Shown piece after piece: positions 6,880-54,393 of a stretch of DNA of 64,000 bases (position 1 is the first letter of the stretch; every line of letters starts with the position of its first letter). Below the pieces are notes generated by a model. That model was not told where the DNA came from. It saw only the letters and a list, made by a program, of their open reading frames with translations, and made no database searches. Source of the DNA: Allosphingosinicella vermicomposti (GTDB lineage: Bacteria; Pseudomonadota; Alphaproteobacteria; Sphingomonadales; Sphingomonadaceae); assembly GCF_003012815.1 (NCBI RefSeq), contig NZ_PXYJ01000002.1, forward strand, positions 1 through 64,000. Direction: 5' to 3'. The translations under genes were made by a program, and so were the position numbers.

Positions 6880-6954
6880 CCGCTAGCCCTGAGCTTGTCG
6901 AAGGGCGTGTGAATCGCACGTTGCCCACGCCCTTCGACAAGCTCAGGGCTAGCG
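6880..6954. repeat. REPIN-like inverted repeat, family A
   Basis: CCGCTAGCCCTGAGCTTGTC and GACAAGCTCAGGGCTAGCG arms between the divergent ydbH and radC. It occupies most of the intergenic space, so promoters for both genes must lie within or very near it. Confidence 0.85.
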
Positions 6955-7689: not shown

Positions 7690-7696
7690 CTTTCTT

Positions 7697-7776
7697 CGTC
7701 ATTGCGAGCGTAGCGAAGCAATCCATCTGTCGGCTTGGCACAGGGCCTGGATTGCCGCGCTTCGCTCGCAATGACG
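7697..7776. repeat. REPIN-like inverted repeat, family G (CGTCATTGCGAGCG)
   Basis: CGTCATTGCGAGCGTAGCGA and TTCGCTCGCAATGACG arms, the only copy of this family in the window. It starts 8 bp after the radC stop. The 7690-8007 stretch holds this repeat, the next one and a terminator, and no gene that I can support. Confidence 0.8.
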
Positions 7777-7841
7777 AGGCAAGAAGGGCTGCGGCCCACG
7801 TTCATGCCCTCAAGTTAATACCCAACGTGTGACATACCCCT

Positions 7842-7911
7842 CCCGCTAGTCCTGAGCCTGTCGAAGGACGGTTCCAGCGGAACGGGCTTCGACAGGCTCA
7901 GCCCTAGCGGG
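7842..7911. repeat. REPIN-like inverted repeat, family A
   Basis: CCCGCTAGTCCTGAGCCTGT and ACAGGCTCAGCCCTAGCGGG arms with a GGACGG...CGGGC centre, the second repeat in the gap between convergent radC and the EF-hand gene. Confidence 0.85.
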
Positions 7912-8595: not shown

Positions 8596-8746
8596 CTCTC
8601 TCTCCTAATCATATGGCCTGCACGAAGGTGTGACCTTTGCCGGAAGAACGGTTGCCATAGCGCCGCGCTCCGCCTTTCGTCGGATTGAAGGGGCGGCTCG
8701 ACTTTGCTACCCGCCCGCAAACGCCTTCAGCTTCAGGACAAAAGCC

Positions 8747-10060
8747 ATGATCCCTCGTTACGCGCGTGCCCAGATGACCGGCATCTGGGAACCCGAGAGC
8801 CGTTTCCGCATCTGGTTCGAGATCGAGGCTCATGCGCTCGATGCGATGGCCAAGCTCGGCGTCGTGCCGGCAAGCGCGACCAAGGCGGTGTGGGACTGGT
8901 GGGCGACCAATCCGGCCATCGACGTCGCCCGCATCGACGAGATCGAGGCGGTGGTGAAGCATGACGTCATCGCCTTCCTCACCTGGGTCGCCGAACAGGT
9001 TGGCCCCGAAGCGCGCTTCCTGCATCAAGGCATGACCAGCTCCGACGTGCTCGACACCTGCCTTGCGGTGCAGCTTGCACGCGCATCCGACATCCTGATC
9101 GCCGATCTTGACGAGCTGCTCGTGGTGCTGAAGCGTCGCGCTTACGAACATAAGCTGACGCCGACCATCGGCCGCAGCCACGGCATTCACGCCGAACCGG
9201 TCACCTTCGGCCTGAAGCTCGCCCAGGCCTATGCCGAATTCGAACGCAACCGCGCCCGCCTGATCGCCGCCCGCGCGGACATTGCGACCTGCGCCATTTC
9301 CGGCGCCGTCGGCACCTTCGCCAATATCGACCCCAGCGTCGAGGCTCATGTCGCCGACAAGATGGCCCTGTCCGTCGAGCCCGTCTCTACGCAGGTCATC
9401 CCGCGCGACCGCCACGCCATGTTCTTCGCGACCCTCGGCGTCGTCGCCTCATCGATCGAGCGCCTCGCCACCGAAATCCGCCACCTTCAGCGCACCGAAG
9501 TGCTGGAAGCGGAGGAATATTTCTCGCCGGGCCAAAAAGGCTCGTCCGCCATGCCGCACAAGCGCAATCCAGTGCTGACCGAAAACCTCACCGGCCTCGC
9601 CCGCATGGTGCGCGGCTATGTGACCCCGGCGCTCGAGAACGTCGCCCTCTGGCACGAACGCGACATCAGCCACAGCTCGGTCGAACGCTATATCGGCCCG
9701 GACGCCACGGTGACGCTCGACTTTGCCCTGGCCCGCCTCACCGGTGTGATGGACAAGCTCGTCGTCTATCCGGAGCGGATGCAGAAGAATCTCGACCGCA
9801 TGGGCGGCCTCGTCCACTCCCAGCGCGTTCTCCTTGCCCTGACGCAGGCAGGCGCGAGCCGCGAGGACAGCTACCGCCTCGTCCAGCGCAACGCGATGAA
9901 GGTCTGGGAATCCGACGGCCAATTATCGCTGCTCGAGCTGCTCAAGGCCGATCCGGAAGTGACCGCCTTGCTGTCGCCGCAAGAAATCGAGGAACGTTTC
10001 GACCTCGATTATCATTATAAGCACGTGGATACGATTTTTGCGCGCGTCTTTGGAGACTGA
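8747..10060 (+). CDS. purB: Adenylosuccinate lyase
   Basis: Catalyses two fumarate-releasing steps of purine synthesis (SAICAR to AICAR and adenylosuccinate to AMP). The 437-residue product starts MIPRYARAQMTGIWEPESRF and carries the fumarase/lyase signature GSSAMPHKRNP, plus HQGMTSSDVLDT and GRSHGIHAEP with catalytic-region histidines. The ATG at 8747 matches the family start; the open frame upstream to 8630 does not. It ends directly before bphO, so read-through into the phytochrome unit is possible. Confidence 0.96.
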   Translation: MIPRYARAQMTGIWEPESRFRIWFEIEAHALDAMAKLGVVPASATKAVWDWWATNPAIDVARIDEIEAVVKHDVIAFLTWVAEQVGPEARFLHQGMTSSDVLDTCLAVQLARASDILIADLDELLVVLKRRAYEHKLTPTIGRSHGIHAEPVTFGLKLAQAYAEFERNRARLIAARADIATCAISGAVGTFANIDPSVEAHVADKMALSVEPVSTQVIPRDRHAMFFATLGVVASSIERLATEIRHLQRTEVLEAEEYFSPGQKGSSAMPHKRNPVLTENLTGLARMVRGYVTPALENVALWHERDISHSSVERYIGPDATVTLDFALARLTGVMDKLVVYPERMQKNLDRMGGLVHSQRVLLALTQAGASREDSYRLVQRNAMKVWESDGQLSLLELLKADPEVTALLSPQEIEERFDLDYHYKHVDTIFARVFGD

Positions 10061-10633
10061 GTGACAGCCCGTCAGACGTTGCGCGCGGCTACGGCTGACG
10101 ACCATGAGCGGGTGGACGCTTTGTTCTCTGCCTTCGATCTCAGCACGCGTGAAGGCTATTGCGCGTTTCTTGCAGCGCAGGCGGAGCCCTTCCTTTCAAC
10201 CGAAGCAGAACTGGAGCAGGCAGGTATCGGACGGCTGATATCTGATTGGCCGCACCGCAAGCGCGGGCATCTGCTCGCTGAGGATTTCGCATCATTGTGC
10301 TCCGGCGAAGGCCGGAGCCCAGATGAAGGGACCGCTGTCGCTGGGCTCCTGCTTCCGCAGGAGCACAATGATGCGGCCCTTCTTGGCGCACTTTACGTCC
10401 TTGAGGGATCGCGGCTTGGTGGCAAGCTGCTCGCCCGATCCGTGCCGCCGCATTTTCCGACTCGCTTCCTGTCCGCATCCGCGCTGCGGGGGGCATGGCC
10501 CAGCCTACTGGAAATGCTGGATGAATTTCTTTACGATTCAGCCCGGATCGACGCAGCGGTGGGGGCCGCGCGTGCGGTTTTTCAGCGCTTTGAACTCGGG
10601 GCAAAGCGCGTGTTGGAGTTAGAGTTAGCGTGA
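10061..10633 (+). CDS. bphO: Biliverdin-forming heme oxygenase BphO, interrupted in frame by a repeat
   Basis: Bacterial heme oxygenases open heme to biliverdin, the chromophore of bacteriophytochromes. The 190-residue product has LRAATADDHERVDALF, with His15 as likely proximal heme ligand, and the distal-helix motif LGALYVLEGSRLGGKLL. It starts with GTG immediately after the purB stop and overlaps bphP by 4 bp (GTGA), so it supplies the downstream photoreceptor. Codons about 77-105 are made from an 86-bp inverted repeat (10289-10374), giving a segment foreign to the family between the N-terminal helices and the distal helix. The frame stays open and both heme-contact motifs survive, so it may still work. 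Confidence 0.85.
   Translation: MTARQTLRAATADDHERVDALFSAFDLSTREGYCAFLAAQAEPFLSTEAELEQAGIGRLISDWPHRKRGHLLAEDFASLCSGEGRSPDEGTAVAGLLLPQEHNDAALLGALYVLEGSRLGGKLLARSVPPHFPTRFLSASALRGAWPSLLEMLDEFLYDSARIDAAVGAARAVFQRFELGAKRVLELELA
10289..10374. repeat. REPIN-like inverted repeat, family E, inside bphO
   Basis: Perfect outer arms GCATCATTGTGCTCC and GGAGCACAATGATGC enclose CGGCGAAGGCCGG-type and CTGCTTCCGCAG inner hairpins. The same family occurs downstream of priA at 36614, where it is intergenic. Here the whole repeat is translated. Confidence 0.85.
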
Positions 10634-13221
10634 TAAGCCCCCCCGAGCCGGTGAATCTCACCACTTGCGATCGCGAGCCCATTCACATTCTCGGTGCGAT
10701 CCAGCCCTTCGGTTTCCTCCTCGCGCTGTCGAGCGACTGGATGATCCAGCGCGCTTCGAAGAATATTGGGGAATTCCTGGGCGAAGACGCGAGTGCGGTC
10801 ATTGGCCGCCCGCTCGGCGAATTCGTTACGCCATCCGCGCTTCACAGCCTGCGCAACCGTCTCGCCATGTTGCGCGGCGCCGATTCCGTGGAGCGGATTT
10901 TCGATTGCGCGCTGACCGCGTCGGACGAAAGCTTCGACATCGCTATTCACATGGCGAACGGCCGCATCATCATCGAAGCCGAACCGGCCTCGGACGAACA
11001 TGGCGACGCAACTGGTGTCGTCCGCTCGATGATCGCCCGCCTCGACCAGGCCGACAGCCTCACCACCTTCTTCACCGAAGGCGCTCGGCAAGTGCGTGCG
11101 CTGACCGGTTACGACCGCGTCATGGTCTATCGCTTCGCGCCCGACGGATCGGGCGAGGTGGTGGCCGAAGCGGTTAAGCCCGCCATCGGCTCGTTCCTCG
11201 GCCTGCATTATCCGGCGAGCGACATTCCGGCCCAGGCACGCGAACTCTATCGCCGCAACCTCCTGCGCGTCATTGCGGATGTGGACGCGGAACCGGTTCG
11301 CATCTTTCCGGAGCTGGACGAGAGCGGCCAACCGCTCGACCTGTCCCTCTCCATCCTCCGCTCGGTCTCGCCCATCCATATCGAATATCTGAAGAATATG
11401 GGCGTTGCCGGATCCATGTCGATTTCGATCGTCGTGGAGGGCAAGCTGTGGGGCCTCTTTGCCTGCCACCATTATTCGCCGCGCCGCGTCACGTTCGAAC
11501 GGCGATCGGTTTGCGAGCTGTTCGCCCAGATGTTCTCGATGCGCCTCGAAAGCCGGGAGCGGCAGCAGACGGTAGAATTCGAGCGCCGCGCCCGCGATAT
11601 TTCCGATCAATTGCTCGGTGCCGTCGCATCGGACGAAACCCTTCTTAACGATCCCGATTGGCTGAGCGACATCCTGACGGGCGCGATCGCCGCGGACGGC
11701 GTCGGCGTCTGGATCAACGGAAATTACGCTTTCTCCGGCGTTACGCCGCGTACCGACGAATTCGCGCGCATCGTGAAGGCGCTGAACGGCACCGCGTCCG
11801 GCCGCATCTACGCCACCGATTGCATCGCATCGATCGTGCCGGGCGCCGAGCGTTTCGCCAACGAAGCGGCGGGCATGCTCGCCATTCCGATTTCGCGCAC
11901 GCCGCGCGATTACGTCGTGCTGTTCCGGCGCGAAATCGTCCGGTCCGTGCGGTGGGCGGGCGATCCCCACAAACCCGTCGAATATGGCCCAAACGGCCCG
12001 CGCCTGACCCCCCGCCAGAGTTTCGAGGAATGGAAGGAACTGGTCCAAGGCCGCTCCCGTCCCTTCACAGCCTCTGAAATCCGCGTCGCCGAAACCCTGC
12101 GCGCCACGCTCATCGAAGTCGTTCTTCGCCTGTCGGACGAAGCCAGCATCGAACGACAGCAGGCGAGCGAGCGGCAGGAGTTGCTGATCGCGGAGCTCAA
12201 TCACCGCGTCCGCAACATCCTGGGCGTAATCCGCGGTTTGATCCGCCAATCGCAGACGAGCAGGATCTCGATCGAGGATTTCGTGAAGCTCGTCGACGGG
12301 CGCATCCATGCGCTGGCGCGTGCGCACAATCAGATCACGGAAGACCATTGGGGCCCCGCGCCCTTGCAGAATATCATCGATGCCGAAGCCGCCGCCTTCC
12401 TCGCCGACAGCGCGGACCGGATCATCGCGGACGGCCCGATGGTCCTCCTTAATCCGCAAGCCTATTCGACAATGGCCCTCGTTATGCACGAACTGGTTAC
12501 GAACAGCGCCAAATATGGCGGCCTGTCGGATAGCGGGCGCGTGCTGCTCAATTGGTCGATCGAAGAAACTGGCGATCTCATCATCAATTGGCGGGAAGAG
12601 GGCGGGCCGCCCGTCACGCCGCCGACGCGCAAAGGGTTCGGCTCCACCATCATCGACCGCTCGGTGCCCTATGACCTCGGCGGAACGGCCAGCATGGATT
12701 ATAAGTCGGCGGGCTTGGAGGCCTCCTTCCGTATCCCTGCGCGCCACGTGTCGAAAGCGAAAGCCTCGTCCATGCCGCGCATCTCGATCCCGCGTCATCA
12801 TGAAGAGCAGGCGGTTATCGATTCCTATAACGGCCTCATCGCCAACCACCGCGTGCTGCTGGTCGAGGACAGCCTCATCATCGCTCTCGACGCCGAAGAC
12901 ATATTGAAGCGCCTCGGCGCTCGCGAAGTGGTGACCGCCGCCAATGTCGAAACCGCGCTCACGTTGATCGAGGACGTGAAGCCGACCATGGCCATGCTCG
13001 ACATTAACCTTGGCGACCAGACAAGCTTCCCGATCGCGGACCGCCTGAACGAAGTCGGCATCCCGTTCCTCTTCGCCACAGGCTATGGAGAGCAGGCGCA
13101 GCTGCCGGCCGACCACAAGGCCAGGGTCGTTCTGCAAAAGCCTTACACGCTGAAGAATGTCGCCCGCGCCATGCCGATCCTGACCGGCGGCCTGGACAAT
13201 GCGGCGGAGGCGGCGAAGTAA
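10630..13221 (+). CDS. bphP: Bacteriophytochrome: PAS-GAF-PHY, HWE-type histidine kinase and receiver domain
   Basis: Red/far-red photoreceptor kinase of 863 residues. The N-terminal PAS has the biliverdin-attachment Cys13 (TTCDREP) and GAIQPFG. The GAF has PASDIPAQARELY and SPIHIEYLKNMGV. The PHY tongue has TPRQSFEEW. The kinase is HWE/HisKA_2 type: phospho-acceptor His525 in ELNHRVRN, VMHELVTNSAKYGGLS and the diagnostic WREEGGPPV. A receiver domain follows (about 738-860) with Asp791 in MLDINLG and Lys in QKPYT. The GTG start overlaps the bphO stop. The fused receiver without output domain suggests phosphotransfer to other proteins or a phosphate sink. IQPFG has Phe where many members have His. 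Confidence 0.93.
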   Translation: MISPPEPVNLTTCDREPIHILGAIQPFGFLLALSSDWMIQRASKNIGEFLGEDASAVIGRPLGEFVTPSALHSLRNRLAMLRGADSVERIFDCALTASDESFDIAIHMANGRIIIEAEPASDEHGDATGVVRSMIARLDQADSLTTFFTEGARQVRALTGYDRVMVYRFAPDGSGEVVAEAVKPAIGSFLGLHYPASDIPAQARELYRRNLLRVIADVDAEPVRIFPELDESGQPLDLSLSILRSVSPIHIEYLKNMGVAGSMSISIVVEGKLWGLFACHHYSPRRVTFERRSVCELFAQMFSMRLESRERQQTVEFERRARDISDQLLGAVASDETLLNDPDWLSDILTGAIAADGVGVWINGNYAFSGVTPRTDEFARIVKALNGTASGRIYATDCIASIVPGAERFANEAAGMLAIPISRTPRDYVVLFRREIVRSVRWAGDPHKPVEYGPNGPRLTPRQSFEEWKELVQGRSRPFTASEIRVAETLRATLIEVVLRLSDEASIERQQASERQELLIAELNHRVRNILGVIRGLIRQSQTSRISIEDFVKLVDGRIHALARAHNQITEDHWGPAPLQNIIDAEAAAFLADSADRIIADGPMVLLNPQAYSTMALVMHELVTNSAKYGGLSDSGRVLLNWSIEETGDLIINWREEGGPPVTPPTRKGFGSTIIDRSVPYDLGGTASMDYKSAGLEASFRIPARHVSKAKASSMPRISIPRHHEEQAVIDSYNGLIANHRVLLVEDSLIIALDAEDILKRLGAREVVTAANVETALTLIEDVKPTMAMLDINLGDQTSFPIADRLNEVGIPFLFATGYGEQAQLPADHKARVVLQKPYTLKNVARAMPILTGGLDNAAEAAK

Positions 13222-13300
13222 TCGTTCAGATCACCTGGATATTGATGCTCATCCGGGTTCGCCTCCCTGTCCGTCACCTCGTCTCACCGCCCTCCCACCG

Positions 13301-13380
13301 TCACCCCGGCGGAAGCCGGGGTCTCAGGACCAGATCGCGCCTTATTCGTTACGAGACCCCGGCTTTCGCCGGGGTGACGG
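13301..13380. repeat. REPIN-like inverted repeat, family B (GTCACCCCGGCGAAAGCCGG)
   Basis: GTCACCCCGGCGGAAGCCGG and CCGGCTTTCGCCGGGGTGAC arms. Family B recurs at 14645, 18475, 20732 and 38770. This copy sits between convergent bphP and dnaJ; the rest of that 282-bp spacer shows nothing recognisable. Confidence 0.85.
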
Positions 13381-13503
13381 TGATGAGGCAAGAGGAGAAG
13401 CGGCGCTCTCGCCCCCTTAGGGAGAGAGTTGGAGAAAGCGGAATGATGTTGGGGGACTACGCAATCGCGTCCACCCGTCCCCCGGGGTCGAAGGAAAGCG
13501 AAT

Positions 13504-14628: not shown

Positions 14629-14644
14629 GACGGCGCCCCCACGC

Positions 14645-14726
14645 CGTCACCCCGGCGAAAGCCGGGGTCTCGTAGAGCAGGGCCGCAGCCCTTCCCACTG
14701 AGATTCCGGCTTCCGCCGGAGTGACG
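14645..14726. repeat. REPIN-like inverted repeat, family B, between dnaK and dnaJ
   Basis: CGTCACCCCGGCGAAAGCCG and CCGGCTTCCGCCGGAGTGACG arms, close to the dnaJ start and between two co-directional chaperone genes. A hairpin here could change the dnaK:dnaJ transcript ratio. Confidence 0.85.
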
Positions 14727-14851
14727 ATCGTTTTCATAAAAGACCTGAGAAAAGAACCCGCTCGGGCTGAGCCTTTCGAACACCTGCCTACCTTCTGATT
14801 CAAAAGAAAGGGCAGTCCTCCGATAAGCTCAGACCGAGCGGTGCGCATGCT

Positions 14852-17433: not shown

Positions 17434-17547
17434 CCCCGTTCGCGCTGAGTAGAGACTGAGCTTGTCGAAGGCTCATATCGAAGCGTTTCCACCAACCCTT
17501 CGATACGCCATTTCGACAAGCTCAATGGCTACTCAGGGCGAACGGGG
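17434..17547. repeat. REPIN-like inverted repeat, family F (CGTTCGCGCTGAGTAG)
   Basis: Long arms CCCCGTTCGCGCTGAGTAG... and ...CTACTCAGGGCGAACGGGG with an inner TTTCGACAAGCTCA match to family A. A second copy is at 38914. It lies between the copper chaperone and the HExxH gene. Confidence 0.85.
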
Positions 17548-18059: not shown

Positions 18060-18161
18060 AACAACGCGATTTCCCGCCCACTTTATCGATGCGGACCGGG
18101 CCCCTCTGGCAGCCATGGTGGCTGTGATGTCGGACCGTTTTGACCTGCAAAGGAGCCCGTC

Positions 18162-18464: not shown

Positions 18465-18474
18465 ATGCCTCGTC

Positions 18475-18556
18475 CGTCACCCCGGCGAAAGCCGGGGTCT
18501 CAGGCCGGAAAAGGCGCCTCTCTCGTCACGAGATTCCGGCTTGCGCCGGAATGACG
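18475..18556. repeat. REPIN-like inverted repeat, family B
   Basis: CGTCACCCCGGCGAAAGCCG and CCGGCTTGCGCCGGAATGACG arms, starting 11 bp after the zinc-ribbon gene stop. Confidence 0.85.
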
Positions 18557-18610
18557 TTGTTTCTCTTTTTCCCCATCGCTTGTTAACCATCAAAGGGTTA
18601 CACTGGCGAA

Positions 18611-21786: not shown

Positions 21787-21862
21787 CGTTCGTCTCGAGC
21801 GAAGTCGAGAGGCGCTGGCGCAATGCCGCTATCACGCCCCTCGACTTCGCTCGGGACGAACG
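21787..21862. repeat. REPIN-like inverted repeat, family D (CGTCTCGAGCGAAGTCGAGA)
   Basis: CGTTCGTCTCGAGCGAAGTC and GACTTCGCTCGGGACGAACG arms between yraN and gshB. The other copy is at 54319, between glmU and glmS. Confidence 0.85.
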
Positions 21863-27005: not shown

Positions 27006-27072
27006 GAAATTCCTTTCGTTAGGTTTGGACGGGCCTTACCGCCGCCCCTTCGCTTGCGCCACCCCCCAACAC

Positions 27073-27157
27073 CGTCATGCTGAACTTGTTTCAGCATCCA
27101 TTTCTCCGCCAGCGGGATGCGTTTCACGATGGACCCTGAAACAAGTTCAGGGTGACG
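27073..27157. repeat. REPIN-like inverted repeat, family C
   Basis: CGTCATGCTGAACTTGTTTC and CCCTGAAACAAGTTCAGGGTGACG arms in the divergent rph/hrcA promoter region. It leaves under 40 bp to hrcA. Confidence 0.85.
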
Positions 27158-27195
27158 GTGGTGACGAACCGGTCGATCTTTACTAAATACCCCCC

Positions 27196-36604: not shown

Positions 36605-36613
36605 GCCCATCAC

Positions 36614-36693
36614 CTTCGTGCTCCTGCGAAAGCAGGAGCCCCGTCGCGCCACCGGAAGAGCTGGACTCCTGCTTTCGCAGGAGCACAATGATG
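36614..36693. repeat. REPIN-like inverted repeat, family E
   Basis: GTGCTCCTGCGAAAGCAGGAG and CTCCTGCTTTCGCAGGAGCA arms between convergent priA and the DUF2171 gene. Its right end AGCACAATGATG is the same as that of the copy inside bphO. Confidence 0.85.
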
Positions 36694-36697
36694 CTGC

Positions 36698-38732: not shown

Positions 38733-38888
38733 CCGCACTCCAAAGCTTGCGATCAAACATTCTAATTAGCGTCATTCCGGCGAAAGCCGGAATCTCATGA
38801 CGAGAACGCGCCTCTCTTGCCAAGAGACCCCGGCTTCCGCCGGGGTGACGAAAGACAGGACGGGAGGGATCCGCACTCCAAGCTTGCG
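38733..38888. repeat. Direct repeat CCGCACTCCA(A)AGCTTGCG flanking a REPIN
   Basis: CCGCACTCCAAAGCTTGCG at 38733-38751 and CCGCACTCCAAGCTTGCG at 38871-38888 differ by one base and lie either side of the family B repeat at 38770-38850. The 38704-39215 stretch (512 bp) holds these, two REPIN-like repeats and the atp promoter region, which I could not resolve. I support no gene in it. Confidence 0.55.
38770..38850. repeat. REPIN-like inverted repeat, family B
   Basis: CGTCATTCCGGCGAAAGCCG and CCGGCTTCCGCCGGGGTGACG arms in the spacer between divergent ada and atpH. Confidence 0.85.
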
Positions 38889-41304: not shown

Positions 41305-41388
41305 CGTCACCCTGAACTTGTTTCAGGGTCCATGCGGATGAAGTTTTGGATGCTCGCAGTTGGATGCTGAAACAAGTTCAGCATGACG
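41305..41388. repeat. REPIN-like inverted repeat, family C, inside the atp operon
   Basis: CGTCACCCTGAACTTGTTTC and GAAACAAGTTCAGCATGACG arms fill almost all of the 110-bp atpA-atpG gap, starting 2 bp after the atpA stop. Confidence 0.85.
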
Positions 41389-54318: not shown

Positions 54319-54393
54319 CCGTTCGTCTCGAGCGAAGTCGAGAGACGTTTTGCACTTTCATATATGCTTCTCGACTACGCTCGAAGCGAACGG
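54319..54393. repeat. REPIN-like inverted repeat, family D, between glmU and glmS
   Basis: CCGTTCGTCTCGAGCGAAGT and ACTACGCTCGAAGCGAACGG arms fill most of the 99-bp gap between two co-directional genes of one pathway, 17 bp upstream of the glmS start. Confidence 0.85.

Follow-up and report, generated by a model that had tools for sequence, protein, structure and literature searches.

How does an inverted repeat with perfect outer arms come to lie within the coding sequence of a heme oxygenase gene, and what has it done to the protein? The question is raised by bphO of Allosphingosinicella vermicomposti (genome G000, 99.97% complete), which lies in the 64,000-nucleotide stretch of DNA analysed here (the window). 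The gene (10061-10633, plus strand) encodes a product of 190 residues and starts with a GTG directly 3' of the stop codon of a purB-like gene (8630-10060, plus strand; motif GSSAMPHKRNP). Its stop codon overlaps by 4 nt the start of bphP (10630-13221, plus strand), which encodes a bacteriophytochrome histidine kinase with a PAS_2-GAF-PHY-HWE kinase-receiver architecture and the N-terminal chromophore Cys motif CDREPIHILGAIQ. The order purB-bphO-bphP is common to relatives, and bphO therefore sits at its ancestral locus. The original prediction held that a REPIN-like repeat had here become coding sequence, and that the heme oxygenase, if functional, tolerates it as an extra palindromic insertion.

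The repeat is a head-to-head REP doublet at 10289-10374, encoding residues 77-105 (ASLCSGEGRSPDEGTAVAGLLLPQEHNDA), and, as predicted, it lies wholly within the bphO reading frame and keeps it open. Its arms (10288-10322 and 10341-10375) are 35 nt long and 89% complementary, with an 18-nt spacer between them, and they pair without mismatch over their outer 16 bp, where 15 had first been proposed. The hairpin scores -68.8 kcal/mol as RNA (z -9.1 against shuffles) and z -6.9 against shuffles as DNA. A covariance model (R1), built from 19 copies and spanning both REP units, matches exactly 10289-10374 on both strands (E 4e-22 and 1e-21). The left unit (10295-10322, plus strand) consists of the tag TTGT, the stem GCTCCGGC, the loop GAAG, the stem GCCGGAGC and the tail CCAG; after a variable spacer (10323-10340), the right unit (10341-10368, minus strand) has the same tag and tail, with the stem GCTCCTGC, the loop GGAA and the stem GCAGGAGC. 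Since the right stem is of the CCTGC subtype and the left of the CCGGC subtype, the doublet is a heterodimer.

Is this palindrome more than an accident of sequence? In relatives, the corresponding segment of BphO is hypervariable in sequence and has a similar length, which might suggest that the palindrome arose by chance in a loop that varies in any case. Membership of a repeat family refutes this. The window contains exactly three copies of the 14-mer GGAGCACAATGATG, one in each bphO arm and one at 36680-36693; with two mismatches allowed, 0.42 matches would be expected, and no shuffle gave three. The intergenic family member first placed at 36614-36693 is borne out by a doublet at 36608-36696, recognised in a spacer both as an inverted repeat and by the covariance model. 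Against other copies the bphO repeat reaches 85% identity over 68 bp, with one of them it shares an unbroken run of 31 bases, its hairpin departs from shuffles as given above, and the roughly 38 strong copies that the covariance model finds in the genome (about 40 places by DNA query) exclude chance for the family. The original prediction would have read a loop of similar length and unrelated sequence in close relatives as a sign of coincidence; such a loop does occur, by length, in G008, the nearest relative among the genomes compared, but the inference fails for a multicopy family, and we give coincidence a negligible probability.

The family is more abundant in G008, with about 80 copies by covariance model, while most other genomes of the genus have weaker or fewer matches to the REP model. 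At most places R1 matches at full length on both strands, that is, the copies are mostly head-to-head dimers. The unit is laid out as the tag TTGT, an 8-bp stem GCTCC(T/G)GC, a GAAA or GAAG loop, the closing stem and a CCAG tail. Among 151 REP units, from a scan that itself demanded an 8-bp stem and a 4-nt loop, the tag was TTGT in 62, TCGT in 20 and ATGT in 12, with CGTC not among the commonest; 87 had the loop GAAA and 125 the tail CCAG. The stems start with GC or GT and not with complementary A-T at the first two positions.

The closest known elements are the CGTC REPs of alphaproteobacteria, which form head-to-head dimers, have no dedicated transposase and also occur inside ORFs (Di Nocera et al. 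2013, PMC3733652). Many of the intragenic CGTC REPs are dimers encoding 20-30 residues; examples are reported also from sphingomonads, namely E. litoralis and S. alaskensis, and their neutrality in linkers and loops has been suggested (PMC3733652). The bphO family falls within the structural definition of these elements, which allows stems of 8-9 bp and loops of 4-5 nt and asks for a CCA tail: its stem is 8 bp long, its 4-nt loop is mostly GAAA, and it has both the tail and the head-to-head pairs; many of its copies lie in spacers, some lie wholly within ORFs and encode 20-30 residues, and it too is without a dedicated transposase. It differs in its tag, TTGT instead of CGTC (or TGTC/CCTC), and in a stem that begins with GC or GT instead of AT. 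The family also has the arrangement of RAYT-mobilised REPINs (PMC3116915), in that a pair of inverted REPs around a short variable spacer acts as one multicopy repeat. Unlike for REPINs, no Y1/RAYT transposase gene (PF01797) was detected in G000 or G008; the gene is present in 11 of 26 genomes of the genus. The name REPIN in its strict sense is therefore unsupported, and what stands of the original designation is that a member of a repeat family occupies an open coding frame.

Other repeats share the window. A second, CGTC-type REP doublet family occurs at 13296-13382 (match from 13293), 14638-14733, 18469-18562 and 38763-38857; these copies are weaker R1 matches and belong to a different family of related architecture, with no convincing coding frame through any of the four. 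The window holds at least four more palindromic families, namely CCCTGAGCTTGTCGAAGGG (6881-6954, 7842-7911 and 17434-17547), CGTCATTGCGAGCG... (7690-7783), CGTCACCCTGAACTTGTTTCAGGG (27067-27163 and 41305-41388) and TCGAGCGAAGTCGAG (21787-21862 and 54325-54387). An Rfam terC RNA motif (RF03067) lies at 18088-18142 (plus strand, 58.7 bits).

Comparison of BphO with 13 aligned homologues shows what the repeat did to the protein. One helix ends in DLxxL and the distal helix reads LLGALYVLEG; the segment between them has 30 residues in the window protein, 28 in G008 and 20-22 in three further congeneric species (L027-L029). The relatives' loops, of 20-28 residues, are all unrelated in sequence to the repeat-encoded one. 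The expectation of about 29 residues unlike the heme oxygenase family thus holds for their sequence, and residues 77-105 are repeat-derived in the window BphO only, among the relatives compared. These residues are not a surplus, however. Conserved sequence directly flanks the repeat on both sides, so that the variable loop was replaced, together with the final residues of the helix before it, and it is now the repeat that codes for the conserved Leu79. As the alignment reads, the repeat overwrote a native variable loop; it is not a 29-residue addition to an otherwise normal heme oxygenase, and the idea of a tolerated extra insertion gives way to a replacement (30 versus 28 versus 20-22 residues). 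A profile search matches BphO to the solved heme oxygenases 1sk7 and 1j77 (E 4e-33 and 7e-33) and puts the repeat-encoded loop in this known fold; these enzymes (pa-HO/HemO) have a natural loop in the same helix-loop-distal-helix region, but one unrelated in sequence. Solved structures searched with the single BphO sequence returned nothing, and AlphaFold2, given a two-sequence alignment of too little depth, produced a poor model (mean pLDDT 43.8) that lends the loop placement no direct support.

When did the repeat arrive? The palindrome is absent from the nearest BphO, that of G008 (~60-62% identical), and from all other BphO compared; the comparison with uninterrupted alleles rests on one isolate of the window species. 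An insertion older than the split of the two species, of which the 28-residue G008 loop would be a decayed relic, could account for the 6-8 residues by which that loop exceeds those of L027-L029 and for a weak resemblance between the loops at protein level, which lies for the most part in L, GR-P and AA (shuffle p 0.007), and the family does occupy common sites in rsmB and a cysteine desulfurase of both species. Yet the DNA of the G008 loop neither resembles the repeat (shuffle p 0.45) nor is self-complementary (p 0.81), in a comparison where a true G008 repeat copy, as a control, scores far above shuffles. The rsmB and cysteine desulfurase copies themselves predate the split but have stayed obvious palindromes in both species. 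We regard so old an insertion into bphO as distinctly unlikely.

Does the altered protein still work? BphO has the features expected of a heme oxygenase: its product matches Pfam Heme_oxygenase (PF01126) over residues 4-177 above the cut-off (E 1.9e-5; 25.1 bits against 23), with the proximal His and the distal-helix motif GxxxVxxGSxxG. His15, Gly109, Val113, Gly116, Ser117 and Gly120 are invariant in the 14 aligned sequences, the window protein retains every column that is invariant in the family alignment, and the same alignment reveals no other stop or frameshift. With the loop left out, dN/dS against G008 is ~0.32, a value that reflects mostly the time before the insertion. No second BphO was found in G000, where the bphO query matches only itself at E<=1e-5; a scan of genome contigs with BphO returned one relative only. 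The invariant residues, the lack of a second BphO and the dN/dS value together indicate that the window BphO is probably functional.

The opposite reading is that bphO is an early pseudogene, in which the REP killed function and left the frame open by luck, so that the phytochrome would draw biliverdin from elsewhere or go without. Some signs point this way: the dN of bphO between G000 and G008 is the highest of the three genes compared (0.25 versus 0.09 for rsmB and cysteine desulfurase), marking it as faster-evolving, so that relaxed constraint is possible, its codon score is weak, and a frame left open by chance is not rare for a REP element. REP cores are in fact free of stops in 81-94% of entry frames, against a figure of 49% in shuffled DNA, and their length (usually 69 nt) is a multiple of three in 53 of 95 cases; both properties would help copies to persist in frame with no need for a special mechanism. 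Against loss of function stand the invariant family residues, all kept, with no other stop or frameshift; the intact purB-bphO-bphP order, with the chromophore Cys present in bphP; and the essential-type genes ispE and odhB of G008, which carry an in-frame repeat and still score above family cut-offs. We therefore think it unlikely that bphO is a pseudogene.

A further possibility is that the hairpin is kept for a role in DNA or RNA, for example in mRNA stability or in translational coupling of bphO to bphP, the protein loop being incidental. The very stable hairpin predicted in the mRNA and the 4-nt overlap of the two genes would suit such a role, but the family is found in unrelated genes and spacers with no shared context, and the repeat is missing from relatives' bphO despite the conserved gene order. 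We hold this explanation to be very improbable.

The same family turned out to be in frame in many other genes, an observation that goes beyond the bphO case first noticed. A frame scan of 118 copies from G000 and G008, followed by Pfam and NCBIfam searches, identified nine in-frame sites, bphO included, at which the copies are surrounded by recognised domains or by family matches. In rsmB and one cysteine desulfurase the REP is in frame at the same sites in both species; in G008 it is also in frame in a second cysteine desulfurase, nnrD, ispE, egtB, edd and odhB. Orthologues were aligned at seven of the nine sites (bphO, rsmB, two cysteine desulfurases, edd, odhB and nnrD, leaving aside ispE and egtB), and, as with Rickettsia palindromic elements (RPE), in-frame copies lie in unrelated conserved genes and are absent from relatives' orthologues. 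Several sit at domain boundaries: NusB/methyltransferase in rsmB, E3-binding/catalytic in odhB, the N and C domains in edd, and DinB/FGE in egtB. The G008 odhB, edd, egtB and ispE products exceed the NCBIfam curated cut-offs with their inserts, and the host genes are, judging from their sequences, apparently unbroken. Eight further loci are open through the repeat (L003, L092, L101, L114, L125, L144, L148 and L152); they contain no Pfam domain and were set aside as antisense or chance frames. A G008 semialdehyde dehydrogenase-like gene (L118:117-1331, minus strand) has the repeat at its extreme N-terminus, before the Pfam domains, where it may be leader, and was left out of the site count because the true start may lie downstream.

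The rsmB doublet, in the linker between the NusB and methyltransferase domains (L048:775-2061 and L145:477-1826, minus strand, in G000 and G008), has no counterpart in the 23 further genomes of the genus that were compared. Its stems differ between the two species on both arms, CCTGC in one and CCGGC in the other, which suggests a paired change, conversion or re-insertion. At the second cysteine desulfurase site, G008 has the REP family while G000 has a different palindrome in frame (L010:2430-2520; CCGTTCGCTTCGAGCGAAGTCGAGAA...TTCTCGACTGCGCTCGAACCGAACGG, the latter a near complement of CCGTTCGCTTCGAGCGAAGTCGAGAA); neither palindrome is found at this site in relatives.

Replacement, as in bphO, is not confined to that gene. 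A native segment was overwritten at four sites, and sequence was added at rsmB (~29 residues gained) and nnrD (~25). In odhB, 23 repeat-encoded residues of G008 replace ~21 native Ala/Pro linker residues of G000, in proteins that are 92% identical; the first cysteine desulfurase has 27 repeat residues in place of 13-19, and edd 25 in place of 7. Overwriting is therefore frequent, and it could be the outcome of insertion plus deletion or of copy-in gap repair from another REP copy. One may tentatively go further and suppose that the REP doublets of this clade overwrite native stretches of comparable length through gap repair or gene conversion, with no RAYT, and thus serve as interchangeable linker cassettes, a reading with which the two palindrome families at one cysteine desulfurase site in sister species can be cited; we consider it conceivable but doubtful.

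The explanation that we favour, and think likely, is that a CGTC-like REP doublet, its tag now TTGT, entered bphO after the split from G008, replaced a hypervariable loop and is tolerated as a linker in an active BphO. The doublet would have landed in the G000 lineage and replaced the native loop between the DLxxL-ending helix and the distal helix LLGALYVLEGSRLGG. It would have survived there since its landing place would be a solvent-exposed loop or linker, and since the repeat is open in most reading frames with a usual core of 69 nt, which is divisible by three; gene-breaking insertions would have been purged. The Gly/Pro/Ser-rich repeat peptide would then act as a passive linker, and BphO may still supply biliverdin to the adjacent bacteriophytochrome. 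The data support this account in the family membership of the repeat, its lineage specificity among the genomes compared, the open frame, the near length-neutral swap, the invariant residues and the recurrence in other genes.

Palindromes that code for protein are already known from Rickettsia, from a few other bacteria and, since 2013, from sphingomonads. RPE occupy open frames within housekeeping genes that are unrelated to one another, and these palindromic repeats are thought to be compatible with fold and function (Ogata et al. 2000, 2002, as summarised in PMC10969869 and PMC3733652). The bphO family resembles the RPE of these accounts in lying in frame inside unrelated conserved genes; in contrast to RPE so described, which are ~150 bp long and belong to obligate intracellular hosts, it is ~70-88 bp long, belongs to a GC-rich sphingomonad and has often overwritten native segments. 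The present analysis adds a comparison of two species in which sites are shared, empty or used by two palindromes, and in which native sequence has been overwritten. For annotators, residues 77-105 of the window BphO should not be taken as heme oxygenase family sequence. More broadly, this GC-rich sphingomonad allows protein-coding palindromes to be traced site by site between two related species, and with shared, empty and two-palindrome sites in hand, both the spread of REPs without a RAYT and the question whether repeat peptides are tolerated or used as linkers become testable.
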